From contig JAADGA010000026.1 of the NCBI GenBank assembly GCA_013152615.1, positions 1 to 12,579 on the forward strand: a DNA stretch of 12,579 bases, in the 5' to 3' direction. The stretch is from Alphaproteobacteria bacterium (GTDB taxonomy: Bacteria; Pseudomonadota; Alphaproteobacteria; Sphingomonadales; Emcibacteraceae). Positions within the stretch are counted from its first letter, which is position 1. Every line of letters starts with the position of its first letter. Positions 1 through 4,386 of the stretch are shown here, piece after piece. The position numbers and the translations under genes are program-made. The notes below the pieces were generated by a model, which worked only from the letters and a program-made list of their open reading frames with translations, made no database searches and was not told the origin of the DNA.

Positions 1-1131
1 AAAGCAGAGGCGATATCCGCGCGGGAAGAAGCTGTCAAAAATAGCCGGGCCAAAACAAAATTCCTTGCCGCCGCCAGCCATGACTTGCGCCAGCCCCTTA
101 ATGCCATGGGTTTTTTTATCGAAGCCCTGCAACAGGAACAGGATCCCGCCGAGGGCCACAAACTGGTCGATAAAATTAATGCATCCGCCACATCGCTCCG
201 GGATCTGCTCAACGCCCTGCTGGATATTTCGCGTATCGAGTCCGGTATTCTGCACCCCGAATGGGAAAATTTCCCCATTGACCGCCTCCTCGGTCATATC
301 GCCGATGACTATAAACTGGTGTTCGCAGAGAAAAATATTGATTTCAGCTATGTCCCGAGTTCGGCCTGGGTCAAAAGCGACAGTCCGATGCTGGAGCGTA
401 TGGTGCGCAATATTATCGAGAACGCCCTGCAGCATTCCGCCCGCGCCAAAATCCTGCTCGGCTGTCGGCTGCGGGGCGAAATGGTCTCCATCGAGATCCG
501 GGATCAGGGGCCGGGCATCCCGTTACCCATGCAGGAAAAAATCTTCGAGGAATTCTATCAGATCGACAACCCGGAACGGGACCGGCGCAAGGGCCTCGGC
601 CTTGGTCTCGCCGTGGTCAGTGGTCTGTCCCGAGAACTCGGCCATGATATCAATATCTGGTCCGAACCCGGCAAGGGCGTCTGTTTCAAAATTCTGGTAC
701 CGGGAGCAACGGAAGAAATTATCCTGCCCGGAGAAGAAATTCAGGCCGACAGGACGCCGCCCCCGAATGTCACTATTCTGATAGTGGATGATGATCCGGC
801 CTCTCTGGACGCCATGGCCCGGATGTGCTGCCGGTGGGATTATGATGTGCTGGCTGCGGGCAGTCTTGACCAGGCTCTCGACCTGATTGACGCCGACAGG
901 CGGCCGGATGTCATCATCACCGACCACCGCCTGCAAAAAGGCTTGACCGGCAGCGAAGCCATCGACCGGATCAGGCGCAGGATACATAATGACTGCCCGG
1001 CCATCATTGTCACCGGCGACACCGCCCCTGAACGGCTCAGCGATGCACAGAAAGCCGGCTTTCCCCTGCTTCACAAACCCGTCTTACCCGCCCGTTTAAG
1101 GGCGACGCTCCAGAATATTACCCCGGACTGA
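1..1131 (+). CDS. Hybrid sensor histidine kinase/response regulator, 3' part
   Basis: The reading frame is open from base 1, so the start and the sensor part lie outside the window; 376 codons remain. A dimerisation/H-box motif (FLAAASHDLRQPLNAM) puts the phospho-accepting His at window codon 27, after a helical KAEAISAREEA linker. The HATPase domain follows, with an N-box (RNIIENALQH, about codons 136-145), G1 (DQGPG, about 168-172) and G2 (GLGLGL, about 198-203). A receiver domain begins near codon 258 (ILIVDDDPAS), with the likely phospho-acceptor Asp at codon 308 (IITDHRL), Thr 338 and Lys 359 (HKP). The AAASHDLRQPL H-box is typical of PAS-containing hybrid kinases of the NahK type. Phosphorelay from His to the attached receiver and then to an external partner is inferred. 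The sensed signal cannot be seen. It ends with TGA at 1129-1131, and no partner regulator is in the window. Confidence 0.93.
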   Translation, partial: KAEAISAREEAVKNSRAKTKFLAAASHDLRQPLNAMGFFIEALQQEQDPAEGHKLVDKINASATSLRDLLNALLDISRIESGILHPEWENFPIDRLLGHIADDYKLVFAEKNIDFSYVPSSAWVKSDSPMLERMVRNIIENALQHSARAKILLGCRLRGEMVSIEIRDQGPGIPLPMQEKIFEEFYQIDNPERDRRKGLGLGLAVVSGLSRELGHDINIWSEPGKGVCFKILVPGATEEIILPGEEIQADRTPPPNVTILIVDDDPASLDAMARMCCRWDYDVLAAGSLDQALDLIDADRRPDVIITDHRLQKGLTGSEAIDRIRRRIHNDCPAIIVTGDTAPERLSDAQKAGFPLLHKPVLPARLRATLQNITPD

Positions 1132-1161
1132 CGGAATTTTTTACAGTTTTAACATCCGGGG
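1121..1161 (+). terminator. Possible terminator-like inverted repeat after the kinase gene
   Basis: CCCCGGA (1121-1127) and TCCGGGG (1155-1161) are perfect 7-base arms that span the kinase stop codon and are followed by CATTTTAG. The 27-base loop and short T-run make it a poor intrinsic terminator, so the role is tentative. Confidence 0.25.
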
Positions 1162-1341: not shown

Positions 1342-1358
1342 TGGCATGATAGTTGCTT
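1342..1358 (+). promoter_or_regulatory. Sigma-54 (RpoN) -24/-12 promoter
   Basis: TGGCATGATAGTTGCTT matches the RpoN consensus TGGCAC-N5-TTGCW closely. The GG (1343-1344) and GC (1355-1356) doublets are separated by exactly 10 bases, as required. The expected transcription start is near 1367, leaving a leader of about 30 bases before the ATG at 1399. Sigma-54 promoters are known in front of genes for exosortase-sorted PEP-CTERM proteins in PrsK/PrsR systems, which fits the tail found at 3030-3122. An enhancer-binding activator is required but none is encoded here. Confidence 0.75.
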
Positions 1359-1398: not shown

Positions 1399-3054
1399 AT
1401 GAAATATAAATTAATCCATTTTATTATCATCGGCAGTATCGGTTTTTCGACAGCGATTGCCGTTTCCGTATCACCATCATCCGCCGGGGTCATGCGATAT
1501 AACGCCTATTTCACAAAGAAACAGGGGATGTGGGGCAATAACCGGATCGCAAATATCAGCCAGAATTCGCCGATATTCTCCCTACTCAAACCACGCTTCT
1601 TCAACCAAAGCGTAGGCTCCATTAAAAATGTAACGGTAAAGGTGCCGGTTAAGGGCAATGTTAATCTCGGTTCCTATGGTGCCAGAGTTTCCGCAAGAAT
1701 GGGGGTTAATCTTGGCATTGGTCTCAACAGCAGCTTCACGGGCGGCACCGTGGATACCCGCTATCCGGTTCAGTTCAGTATTGATATCCCCGACCTTACC
1801 AACGCCCGGGTCGGTGACAAGGTCACGATCAGGACCTCTTATAAAATCCTTCCTGGCAGCAATATTTCCAGCAAGATCGGCGAGGCAACCCTGAGCCTCA
1901 ACGCCAAGATGAATATATCCGGCAATGTTTCGACAACCACCTGCCTTAGAACATGCAACAGCAAGAGCTATTATAATATCAATGAGAACCGGACAACCAC
2001 ACTGTTTAAAGCTAAAAACTCGAACCTGAAGCTCAATCTCAGCATAGCCGATATGAGGAGGGGCGTGGCACCGCTTGCCGACGCCATCGCCAGTGGCGCT
2101 CTGAGCCTTGCCGGGATCAATAAAGTGGTGAATACCCCCAGTCAATTAGCGGCATTTTTGCCGTCTTTGGGGTTTAAGAATCTGGCTTTTGAAGCCCCGT
2201 CCCTGACCACCAACGGCTCAACTATCAATGGGGCCGGACTATTGGGTTCGTCCAATTCCCAGAATATATTAGGTCTCGACTGGAGCCTGACCAAGCTCGC
2301 GACCTCCATGGCCTGTCCGTTCAAATTCTGTCCGACCTTAAGTGGGGGATACGCATCCGGTACCTCACCATTTGGCTATAATCTTTTTAAGGATACGGAA
2401 AAATTCAGCGTGGGCCTGAAACAGAAATTCGGCTTCGTGGCTAACACACCGTCAATCCTGCTCAAATTTGGTAATGGCAGTAGTCAGATTATTAAAGCCG
2501 GTGACGCCCTCACCGTGACCCTAGGCAAGGATGGTCTTAATTTACGGCCAACCTTTTTGCTTGGTGGCAAGACCAGCAATTTGACCAACCTGACTTTTGG
2601 ACGGGGTATTGACTGGTCTTCTATGGCCCTATGGGCAAAATTCAGCCATGCCAATATAGCCATTCCCTATACGAAGTGGGTCTCCAGATTTGTTAACGAG
2701 ACTTATAACAAGGTTGTATCCGGTTGGGGCTTTGTCACCTGTCCCTTTCATGGACGCTGGTGGTGGAACAGCAAATGCTGGAAAAAGGCAAGTCGGCGCG
2801 TGGATCGTGGGGGCAACAAATCATTTTCCTTTTCCGCCGCCATCCCGGGTTTTAATGTTGGTTCTTCAAATCCCTTATATAGAGGGTCCGCCTATGACGT
2901 AAATGATCTGTCGGTTTTCAACAGGAGCTGGGAGACTAATTTTCAGTCTCTGTCCGGCAAAACCCTCAAGGTCGCTCTGGGCAGCCCAGCCGTATTTCCG
3001 CTCTGGCAAGTGCGCAACCGCAGACTGCGGTTAACGCCCCCGCCACCGGCCTGA
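1399..3054 (+). CDS. Secreted exosortase-type (PEP-CTERM-like) protein, frameshifted at its 3' end
   Basis: 551 residues from ATG 1399, chosen because an AGGG Shine-Dalgarno (1388-1391) sits 7 bases upstream. The TTG at 1357 lies inside the -12 promoter element and cannot be transcribed. The N-terminus (MKYKLIHFIIIGSIGFSTAI, ending near PSSAG) is a signal peptide, so the product is exported. The mature part is rich in Ser, Asn and Gly, has beta-type alternation and no recognised enzyme motif. It has three cysteine pairs: C182/C186, C306/C311 and C448/C460. The last residues in this frame (QVRNRRLRLTPPPPA) look unnatural. A PEP-CTERM-like tail is open in the -1 frame immediately after, so a one-base indel around 2940-3029 (most simply in TTT 2995-2997) probably truncated the gene; the restored product would be about 575 residues. 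I do not recognise the family of the mature domain. It is read from a sigma-54 promoter. Confidence 0.8.
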   Translation: MKYKLIHFIIIGSIGFSTAIAVSVSPSSAGVMRYNAYFTKKQGMWGNNRIANISQNSPIFSLLKPRFFNQSVGSIKNVTVKVPVKGNVNLGSYGARVSARMGVNLGIGLNSSFTGGTVDTRYPVQFSIDIPDLTNARVGDKVTIRTSYKILPGSNISSKIGEATLSLNAKMNISGNVSTTTCLRTCNSKSYYNINENRTTTLFKAKNSNLKLNLSIADMRRGVAPLADAIASGALSLAGINKVVNTPSQLAAFLPSLGFKNLAFEAPSLTTNGSTINGAGLLGSSNSQNILGLDWSLTKLATSMACPFKFCPTLSGGYASGTSPFGYNLFKDTEKFSVGLKQKFGFVANTPSILLKFGNGSSQIIKAGDALTVTLGKDGLNLRPTFLLGGKTSNLTNLTFGRGIDWSSMALWAKFSHANIAIPYTKWVSRFVNETYNKVVSGWGFVTCPFHGRWWWNSKCWKKASRRVDRGGNKSFSFSAAIPGFNVGSSNPLYRGSAYDVNDLSVFNRSWETNFQSLSGKTLKVALGSPAVFPLWQVRNRRLRLTPPPPA

Positions 3055-3125
3055 TGTTTATGGCTGCCTACGGATTATTTTTCTACCGCCGCCGTCGCCG
3101 GTTCGCTGAAAAACCCGAAAAGTGA
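2997..3125 (+). pseudogene. Out-of-frame PEP-CTERM-like sorting tail of the preceding gene
   Basis: In the frame starting at 2997 the codons read SALASAQPQTA, then VNAPAT (3030-3047), a hydrophobic stretch GLMFMAAYGLFFY, five Arg (3087-3101), FAEKPEK and TGA (3123-3125). The order of short V-x-x-P-A motif, single membrane helix and basic cluster is the architecture of PEP-CTERM signals recognised by exosortase (EpsH/XrtA-type). The frame has a TAA at 2937-2939, so it can only be joined to the upstream gene between 2940 and 3029. There is no start codon with a ribosome site of its own. No canonical slippery heptamer is seen in the joining interval, which argues against programmed frameshifting. 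Confidence 0.72.
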
Positions 3126-3161: not shown

Positions 3162-3677
3162 TTACGCGTCCGGATGCGGCCCCGATGCCAGCCACGAAAA
3201 TCTGCCAAGTTTTGACGTCAACCATTTATCCAGTCCGCAATAAAGCCCGGCGTGGGAAAAAAACAACAATGCGAAAACAATGGCATATATGATCGAAGCC
3301 CCAATATCGGTCGATCCGGCGACATAGGGTCCGCCCAGCCCTTCGGCTGTCGACCAGATGACCAGCGCCAGCAAGCCGCCGCCAATATAGGCAAGATTGG
3401 AAAATATCCCCAGCAACAGTGCGAGCGCCAGACCGGTCTCGGCGGCAGCGATGAAATAGGCGAAAACGGTCGGATCGACCTTGACAATATCAATCCAGAA
3501 ACTGATCCATTCCTTGACCAGAAATGGCTGGCCGTCGCGCCCGCTGACCAGATAACTGACCAAATCATTGATGAAAGAAGGCCGCCATTTAAACTGCGCG
3601 TCAATCGCCCACACCACGCCAAACAGGATTCGGCATATCCCGATCCCGTTTGCCCGCCATTTCCTCAGTCTTACCAT
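3162..3677 (-). CDS. DoxD/DoxX-family membrane protein
   Basis: 171 residues. The ATG at 3677 is chosen because AAAGGG lies 7 bases upstream and the membrane-protein sequence begins there; the frame stays open further upstream but only across the neighbouring gene. There are four hydrophobic segments (about residues 12-27, 68-91, 95-110 and 127-146). The EGLGGPYVAGSTDIGA stretch (about 112-127) resembles the GGPYG-x-GTDIG region of DoxD-like proteins, the small subunit of thiosulfate:quinone oxidoreductase, within the wider DoxX superfamily. A role in quinone-linked thiosulfate or sulfide chemistry is inferred from family and neighbours; many DoxX proteins have no proven function. It is the last gene of a minus-strand cluster with a DsbA-fold protein and a rhodanese, 49 bases after the former. 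It converges on the secreted-protein gene, with 36 bases between the tail stop and this stop. Confidence 0.82.
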   Translation of the reverse strand: MVRLRKWRANGIGICRILFGVVWAIDAQFKWRPSFINDLVSYLVSGRDGQPFLVKEWISFWIDIVKVDPTVFAYFIAAAETGLALALLLGIFSNLAYIGGGLLALVIWSTAEGLGGPYVAGSTDIGASIIYAIVFALLFFSHAGLYCGLDKWLTSKLGRFSWLASGPHPDA

Positions 3678-3726
3678 AAACTGACCCTTTCCTGCCTTAT
3701 AGTGTAAGATAATCCCCAACCGGCGA

Positions 3727-4386
3727 TCAGCACCAACTGGCTTCATAAGCGGGATGCTCGGTGATCTCCCGGATATTGGCGTCCAGAATCCGGTAACCGA
3801 CATTACCGGATAAAGTCTGGCGGCCATTATTCATCACCCATGACGGACTGCCCTTAAGACCTTTTTCCCGGGCAGTCTGATAATCCCGCAACAGCGCCGC
3901 CATCGCGGTACCGTTATCAAGATGAGCGGATAATTTATCGGGACTGAGGCCGTCTTGCTCTGCCAGCGACAACAAAATATCCAACCGGGCAATATCCTGA
4001 GTATCAACAAAAAAGCTTTTGCGGATGGTGGTGGCAAAGGATAAGGCGGTCTGTGCCGAAAAGGCCAGTTCCACGGCCTTTAGCACCCTGTGGGCCGTGG
4101 CCGAGGTCGCCGGTCGCGCCTGCTGCCAGATGGTTGCGCTGACCGGCGCATTGTCATAGGGGGATGATGAGTCAAGAACATGTTTGCCAAAACCGTTATA
4201 GCCCCCGCGATCCTGCCACTGTTTGCCAATACGGGTCGCGGTATCACCAAAAATATCGAGCCAGTGAGGCCGCAGATCGATTTTATTCCCCCACTGATCT
4301 TCGAGTTCATCATTGCGGCGCTGGGCAATCCATGCCCACACACATAATATATCCGTATAATAATCAATCACCAACGGGGATTTCAT
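3727..4386 (-). CDS. DsbA-family (FrnE/HCCA-isomerase-like) thioredoxin-fold protein with degenerate active site
   Basis: 219 residues. The N-terminal strand (VIDYYTDILCVWAW) matches the DsbA/FrnE start, where D-x-x-CPWC is usual. Only the first Cys (C15) is kept, and the second position is Ala18. The cis-proline loop is present (KGSPSWVMNNGR, P181), and the helical insert between the two halves has the length usual for DSBA-like domains. The last residue is Cys219. No signal peptide is seen, so a cytoplasmic location is likely. With one Cys it could act in mono-thiol, glutathione- or thiol-adduct chemistry, as in 2-hydroxychromene-2-carboxylate isomerases and glutathione transferase kappa, rather than as a disulfide oxidase; this is inference. 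The start codon overlaps the rhodanese stop by four bases (ATGA), with AAGGGAG at 4394-4400 serving as ribosome site, so the two are translationally coupled. Confidence 0.87.
   Translation of the reverse strand: MKSPLVIDYYTDILCVWAWIAQRRNDELEDQWGNKIDLRPHWLDIFGDTATRIGKQWQDRGGYNGFGKHVLDSSSPYDNAPVSATIWQQARPATSATAHRVLKAVELAFSAQTALSFATTIRKSFFVDTQDIARLDILLSLAEQDGLSPDKLSAHLDNGTAMAALLRDYQTAREKGLKGSPSWVMNNGRQTLSGNVGYRILDANIREITEHPAYEASWC

Follow-up and report, generated by a model that had tools for sequence, protein, structure and literature searches.

The PEP-CTERM motif and the exosortase EpsH are thought to form a protein sorting system like that of LPXTG and sortase (Haft et al., 2006, PMC1569441). 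That paper describes a motif 1 ending in TTTACA, a –24/–12 motif 2, a large upstream gap, the PrsK, PrsR and PrsT proteins and an EpsH-type exosortase, all of which have their counterparts in the genome considered here, and it states that PEP-CTERM genes are often duplicated and lost. PepA of Aquincola tertiaricarbonis RN12 provides a second point of comparison, since, according to the report (PMC9850573), it is the product of an RpoN-dependent PEP-CTERM gene in an organism that likewise has PrsK, PrsR and PrsT genes, and pepA and prsT act in floc formation. In the genus Ferrovum the group 2 strains have no PEP-CTERM genes, and the authors suggest that the system was lost in one lineage of the genus (PMC4886054), a course of events similar to that which we consider here. 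The genome described below differs from each of these. Compared with the PEP-CTERM/EpsH system it has a tail that is out of frame, a broken prsT gene and a box-to-promoter spacer of 191 nt where Haft et al. (2006) give 32–92 nt, a difference that makes the match less than perfect; compared with RN12, prsT is broken and the body of the protein is an orphan; and compared with the Ferrovum strains, the genes are present but damaged. In one literature collection we found no report of frameshifted PEP-CTERM tails nor, by title, of exosortase phase variation. The gene that concerns us lies in a stretch of DNA of 12,579 nucleotides (the window), and from its sequence we take it to encode, or to have once encoded, an XrtA substrate whose tail now lies out of frame, in an Emcibacter-like alphaproteobacterium (Table 1).

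Table 1. Positions of predicted and observed features in the window.
Feature	Position	Strand	Basis or remark
PrsR-binding box (PEP-CTERM motif 1), predicted, ACTGACGGAATTTTTTACAGTTTT	1127..1150	+	27.3 bits; overlaps the stop codon of the upstream kinase gene
Sigma-54 –24/–12 promoter (motif 2), predicted, TGGCATGATAGTTGCT	1342..1357	+	41 nt 5' of the ATG
Putatively exported orphan protein, 551 aa	1399..3054	+	N-terminal hydrophobic export signal at about 1399–1485, by eye
–1-frame open stretch with sorting tail	2940..3125	+	Frame reading and profile scores
8-nt direct repeat CGCTCTGG	2973–2980 and 2999–3006	+	Spacing 26; phase matches the frame jump
Stem-loop AACCGCAG/CTGCGGTT	3016..3032	+	Precedes and enters the VNAPAT codons
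PEP-CTERM-like tail	3030..3101	+	VNAPAT 3030–3047, hydrophobic stretch 3048–3086, RRRRR 3087–3101
TGATG	3052..3056	+	–1-frame ATG overlaps the frame-0 stop; sequence reading

Results

A sorting-like tail in the –1 frame

Read from its ATG at 1399, frame 0 of the gene ends in a run of Arg and Pro (...VRNRRLRLTPPPPA*), and the translated protein closes without a PEP-CTERM motif, a hydrophobic stretch or a basic cluster. All three are found in the –1 frame only, which reads ...SALASAQPQTAVNAPATGLMFMAAYGLFFYRRRRRFAEKPEK* as far as a stop codon at 3123–3125. The frame change is placed 3' of position 2939, because the last upstream stop codon of the –1 frame is at 2937–2939. A sequence-only reading of this DNA, which had reported an odd Arg/Pro ending in frame 0 and, stranded in the –1 frame, a sorting-like tail of VNAPAT, a hydrophobic stretch and five Arg, is borne out on both counts. 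Beyond the tail lie two minus-strand genes (3162–3827 and 3727–4386), whose listed ORFs overlap, the start of the first being uncertain, and which we take to be DoxX-like and DsbA/FrnE-like, respectively.

Against TIGR02595 the tail reaches 15.5 bits, slightly below the cut-off of 16, and 19.5 bits (E = 7.5e-4) over the last 31 model positions of NF041927, for which the whole-protein cut-off is 125. With PF07589 it is the weakest of three weak matches in the genome, none of them above the cut-off. A tail model was also constructed from relatives of the same genus and family, using 57 tails from 60 PEP-CTERM genes that had been chosen by hand from the TIGR02595 matches listed, and applied to 3,614 frame ends taken from the window and from loci outside the 60 training stretches. 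By this model the window tail reaches 12.9 bits (E = 0.008 for 3,614 frame ends), and the best-scoring frame end outside the PEP-CTERM tails reaches 6.1 bits; every frame end that scores above the window tail is, by eye, a PEP-CTERM tail, many of the top-scoring ones belonging to the same genes as the training set. The coding log-odds of the last 41 codons of the –1 frame are +4.7, to be compared with means of –21.5 for off-frame and 8.0 for in-frame stretches of the same gene, and none of 2,000 off-frame stretches equalled this value; in the last 23 codons taken alone, codon bias favours frame 0 (+4.1 vs –1.1 for the –1 frame). A genome-wide search for the codons of V-x-A-P-A-T gave seven matches and its reversed control 14, and was uninformative. 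The view that the tail is a divergent PEP-CTERM signal is well supported by these sequence comparisons.

The body of the protein had no relative in any collection searched. When the best 8,000 word-sharing candidates among about 5.8 billion proteins were scored against all 551 residues, the protein found only itself, as it did when residues 280–551 were scored against 2,345 candidates from about 5.8 billion proteins and, with a threshold of E = 1e-3, when the body was compared with 60 relatives and with 396 genomes of the order. The latter comparison listed 52 further matches, all weak (best E = 0.003). Exact peptide patterns of the body gave no match in a collection of genome contigs, nor did NCBIfam profiles on the body, and Pfam gave a weak SVA match alone (E = 0.26). 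Since the body has no homologue in these searches, no intact version ties the tail to it.

Regulatory sites and sorting genes

The matrix for the predicted PrsR box is derived from 44 distinct sites that precede PEP-CTERM genes of relatives and score 20.2–34.2 bits, a range that includes the box in the window, where the runner-up reaches 3.5 bits. Sites above 13 bits were found only in the window and on contig C242 in the 488,220 strand-bases sampled from the same genome (some counted twice), and the strict pattern GTCRGN5TTTACA, from which the window box departs by one mismatch, has its sole genome-wide match on C242. The promoter pattern TGGCAYN5TTGCW occurs eight times in the whole genome, including the site in the window, and its reversed control twice. 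In relatives, TGGC[AC][CT]N5TTGC is found upstream of 32 of the 60 PEP-CTERM genes, with a density of 1.20 per kb on the upstream strand and 0.022 per kb in the rest of those loci, a 55-fold difference. A relaxed form of the box precedes 48 of these 60 genes, a box or a sigma-54 site 53 and both together 27; the relaxed pattern has 100 matches in 300,170 strand-bases of the relatives' loci, and 58 of them fall within the 600-nt upstream stretches. The window gene carries both motif 1 and motif 2 upstream, the mark of the regulon, and because both are present it is marked as a PEP-CTERM gene independently of its tail.

A second gene of the genome is preceded by a box (35.4 bits) and a sigma-54 site. 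It lies on C242 (locus L165, 1535–2337) and has an export-type N-terminus, and its frame runs off the end of the contig after AVP, where a PEP motif is expected. Further sigma-54-like sites stand on contigs C122 and C75 upstream of three other genes, which, judging their names from sequence, we presume to be flagellin-like, nitrite-reductase-like and transporter-like. The kinase encoded upstream of the window box has many paralogues and is at most 42% identical to relatives among the matches listed. Residues 1–47 of the kinase frame (window 1–141) match positions 4162–4302 of contig C170 with 96% identity, which suggests that the two contigs overlap or that the match reflects a paralogue or strain variants.

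A single exosortase is encoded in the genome; it is classed as XrtA (300 bits, cut-off 208), and adjoining its gene is that of a PEP-CTERM FemAB protein (442 bits, cut-off 260); EpsB (538 bits, cut-off 393), PrsK (646, cut-off 300) and PrsR (689, cut-off 503) are all encoded on contig C262. The nearest named relatives of this XrtA are eight loci with 62–67% identity, from MAGs labelled Emcibacter sp. (three) or Alphaproteobacteria bacterium (five), and it is on these labels that our term Emcibacter-like is based. Exosortase A and accessory genes are present, though prsT is broken. This gene, which lies 3' of prsR on C262 (locus L167), is split by two frameshifts at about 5095 and 6540, each falling on an exact tandem duplication, one of 8 nt and the other of 11 nt. 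In all five relatives fetched prsT is a single frame of 927–945 codons, and their PrsT matches the present sequence piecewise, in frames 2, 1 and 3, the frame-2 N-terminal piece being listed for three of the five queries; the two pieces that were scanned score 295 and 239, each below the PrsT cut-off of 312 when taken alone. The sequence-only reading had proposed that the genome be searched for an exosortase gene and for similar tails. The former was found together with its accessory genes; in the search for the latter one further gene with the box and promoter came to light, that on C242, whose frame meets the contig end before any tail. The PEP-CTERM interpretation offered in that reading is upheld by the tail scores, the predicted PrsR box and sigma-54 promoter, and the XrtA, PrsK and PrsR genes.

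With NF041927 the only match in the genome is that in the window, compared with 3–28 in each of 15 genomes of the same genus, and with TIGR02595 there is again one match, compared with 6–29 in genomes of the genus and 1, 5, 0, 4 and 0 in five genomes from a second genus within the family (G019–G023). The low count is due in part to the 83% completeness of the assembly, and a single PEP-CTERM gene is also known from Rhodospirillum rubrum, as noted by Haft et al. (2006, PMC1569441). Among 12 short tail frames fetched from relatives, five reach a contig edge and seven do not. L194 amounts to a tail remnant, Ns are present in L196, and L193, L198 and L199 were set aside, which leaves L195 and L197 as comparable breaks. 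L195 has a promoter, a frame with an export signal and a tail in another frame, and the alignment of its homologue L136 covers both parts but leaves out the middle, so that the break, judged against L136, is an internal deletion with a frame change. In L197, which comes from a genome of one contig, an in-frame stop lies 50 codons from the end; residues 87–229 are 89% identical to a homologue across that stop, and for residues 1–86 no match was found. Apparent tail loss by different lesions is seen in these sequences to recur around this genus.

The frame break and the assembly

Under a codon model with one assumed jump to the –1 frame, the switch point is distributed over about 2980–3043 and has no sharp peak; the TTT at 2995–2997, where the sequence-only reading would have inserted one T, is not singled out. 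The CGCTCTGG repeat sits at the start of this interval. Its spacing and both prsT duplication units are equal to 2 mod 3 and shift the frame in the same direction; a repeat of such length and phase arose by chance in 302 of 5,000 order-1 random sequences (about 6%), and the 18 nt between its copies have no other occurrence in the genome with two mismatches allowed. As the cause of the frame jump the repeat is suggestive only. Homopolymer slippage or sequencing error as the cause is not supported by the positions of the runs of four or more near the junction, of which TTTT at 2940 and AAAA at 2959 are outside the switch interval and CCCCC at 3037 is within the motif. No X XXY YYZ slippery heptamer was found between 2937 and 3046, in agreement with the sequence-only reading. 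The 86 nt around the stem-loop fold with a z of –2.58, and three of 200 shuffles fold equally well.

All of these results rest on one assembly, a metagenome-type draft of 272 contigs that is 83% complete, and this assembly has some faults. The flgI gene is broken at a run of 10 N (C122, locus L245, about 5389), and a gene for a TonB-dependent receptor has an in-frame stop between two matching halves (C251, locus L242, about 3989). A loose screen for breaks, which covered 227,723 bases of the genome and missed the window gene because its tail is too short, flagged 29 of 90 neighbouring coding pairs. Two of these are the prsT breaks, six more junctions were checked by profile (two of them from one side only) and 21 were outside the check; the six consist of the N-run break in flgI, the in-frame stop in the receptor gene, a two-gene pair with no break (topA followed by an RNase R-like gene) and three with no clear call. 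In this small and loose sample three breaks away from N runs are thus clear, of which two belong to prsT. The 12 other listed ORFs of the window all lack internal stops, by ORF reading rather than a profile test of full length. We considered and rejected the idea that the assembly is rich in short tandem duplications, as repeats whose lengths are not multiples of three make up eight of 25 (in 225,565 bases) and, in relatives, 13 of 20 (in 174,390 bases), and there is no excess.

Discussion

We propose, with moderate confidence, that anchoring has been lost in this gene, in that a mutation put the tail of an exosortase A substrate out of frame as the sorting system decays in the lineage. In the hypothetical course of events PrsR would activate the sigma-54 promoter, leading to transcription of the substrate gene, in which a small length-changing mutation, probably at about 2970–3043, would have moved the sorting tail out of frame. 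The protein, if expressed, would be exported by means of its N-terminal signal, but it would have neither a hydrophobic/Arg tail nor a motif for XrtA to recognise. The sorting step would be impossible because the tail is absent from the translated protein, and this would most likely be released into the periplasm or the medium. We read the lesion as part of a decay of PEP-CTERM sorting in the lineage because the same assembly shows other damage, that in prsT, and we infer that the cell itself carries the lesions. In favour of this proposal are the tail scores and coding bias, the box and promoter, the machinery, the prsT breaks, the few substrates and the stranded tails of relatives; against it are the single assembly, the absence of a body homologue, the sub-cut-off tail, the bias of the last 23 codons and the 191-nt spacer.

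Its main rival is a fault of assembly or consensus, such that the gene is continuous in the cell and its product is an ordinary PEP-CTERM protein, which we regard as possible though not probable. The genome is a draft of the metagenome type in which flgI has one break and prsT two, and the intact –1 tail would fit a break that is very recent or artificial; moreover, since the flgI break at 10 N is assembly-made, those in prsT may be so too. The stretch itself, however, is free of N, and where the switch probably lies it has no long homopolymer; the neighbouring ORFs of the window are free of internal stops, and few clear breaks away from N runs came out of the screen. An improbable alternative is that anchoring is switchable, with slipped mispairing at the CGCTCTGG repeats (26 nt), or a similar event, toggling the tail so that released and anchored forms would exist in one population. 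In its favour, the phase of the repeat is the one required, relatives show stranded tails more than once and prsT likewise breaks on short duplications; but a repeat of such phase also arises by chance in about 6% of random sequences, the comparable breaks in relatives (a deletion and a stop) have no common repeat, no second allele was seen, and the sequence between the repeat copies is unique in the genome. Yet more doubtful is the group-wide form of this idea, in which repeat-mediated length changes before the tail would reversibly switch exosortase A anchoring and the stranded tails of relatives would be off states; if it were true, populations would hold both anchored and released forms of matrix proteins.

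Programmed –1 frameshifting, by which one gene would yield both a released and an anchored form, is barely credible. The stem-loop with its stable local fold would suit such a mechanism, as would the fact that each frame looks coding on its own side of the junction, but the region has no slippery heptamer, no homologue was found that shows a conserved arrangement of frames, and the prsT breaks need no such mechanism. Slippage is unlikely, and of the three options in the sequence-only reading it has little positive support, there being a stem-loop without a slippery site; an assembly fault remains a rival and loss of the anchor fits best. It is also extremely unlikely that the tail is a chance resemblance, or that it reflects a separate peptide of 23 residues made by re-initiation at TGATG, where the –1-frame ATG overlaps the frame-0 stop. 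The tail does fall below the TIGR02595 cut-off, but such a peptide would have neither VNAPAT nor an export signal, and the box and promoter mark a PEP-CTERM gene independently.

Loss of anchoring, as we propose it, is a modest case of a known system decaying and not a new mechanism, and it points to a piecewise loss of PEP-CTERM sorting in one Emcibacter-like lineage. With the box and promoter as a guide, a sorting substrate is recognisable even where the tail is out of frame and below the cut-off, and counts of exosortase substrates that are made from annotated C-termini alone miss such genes.
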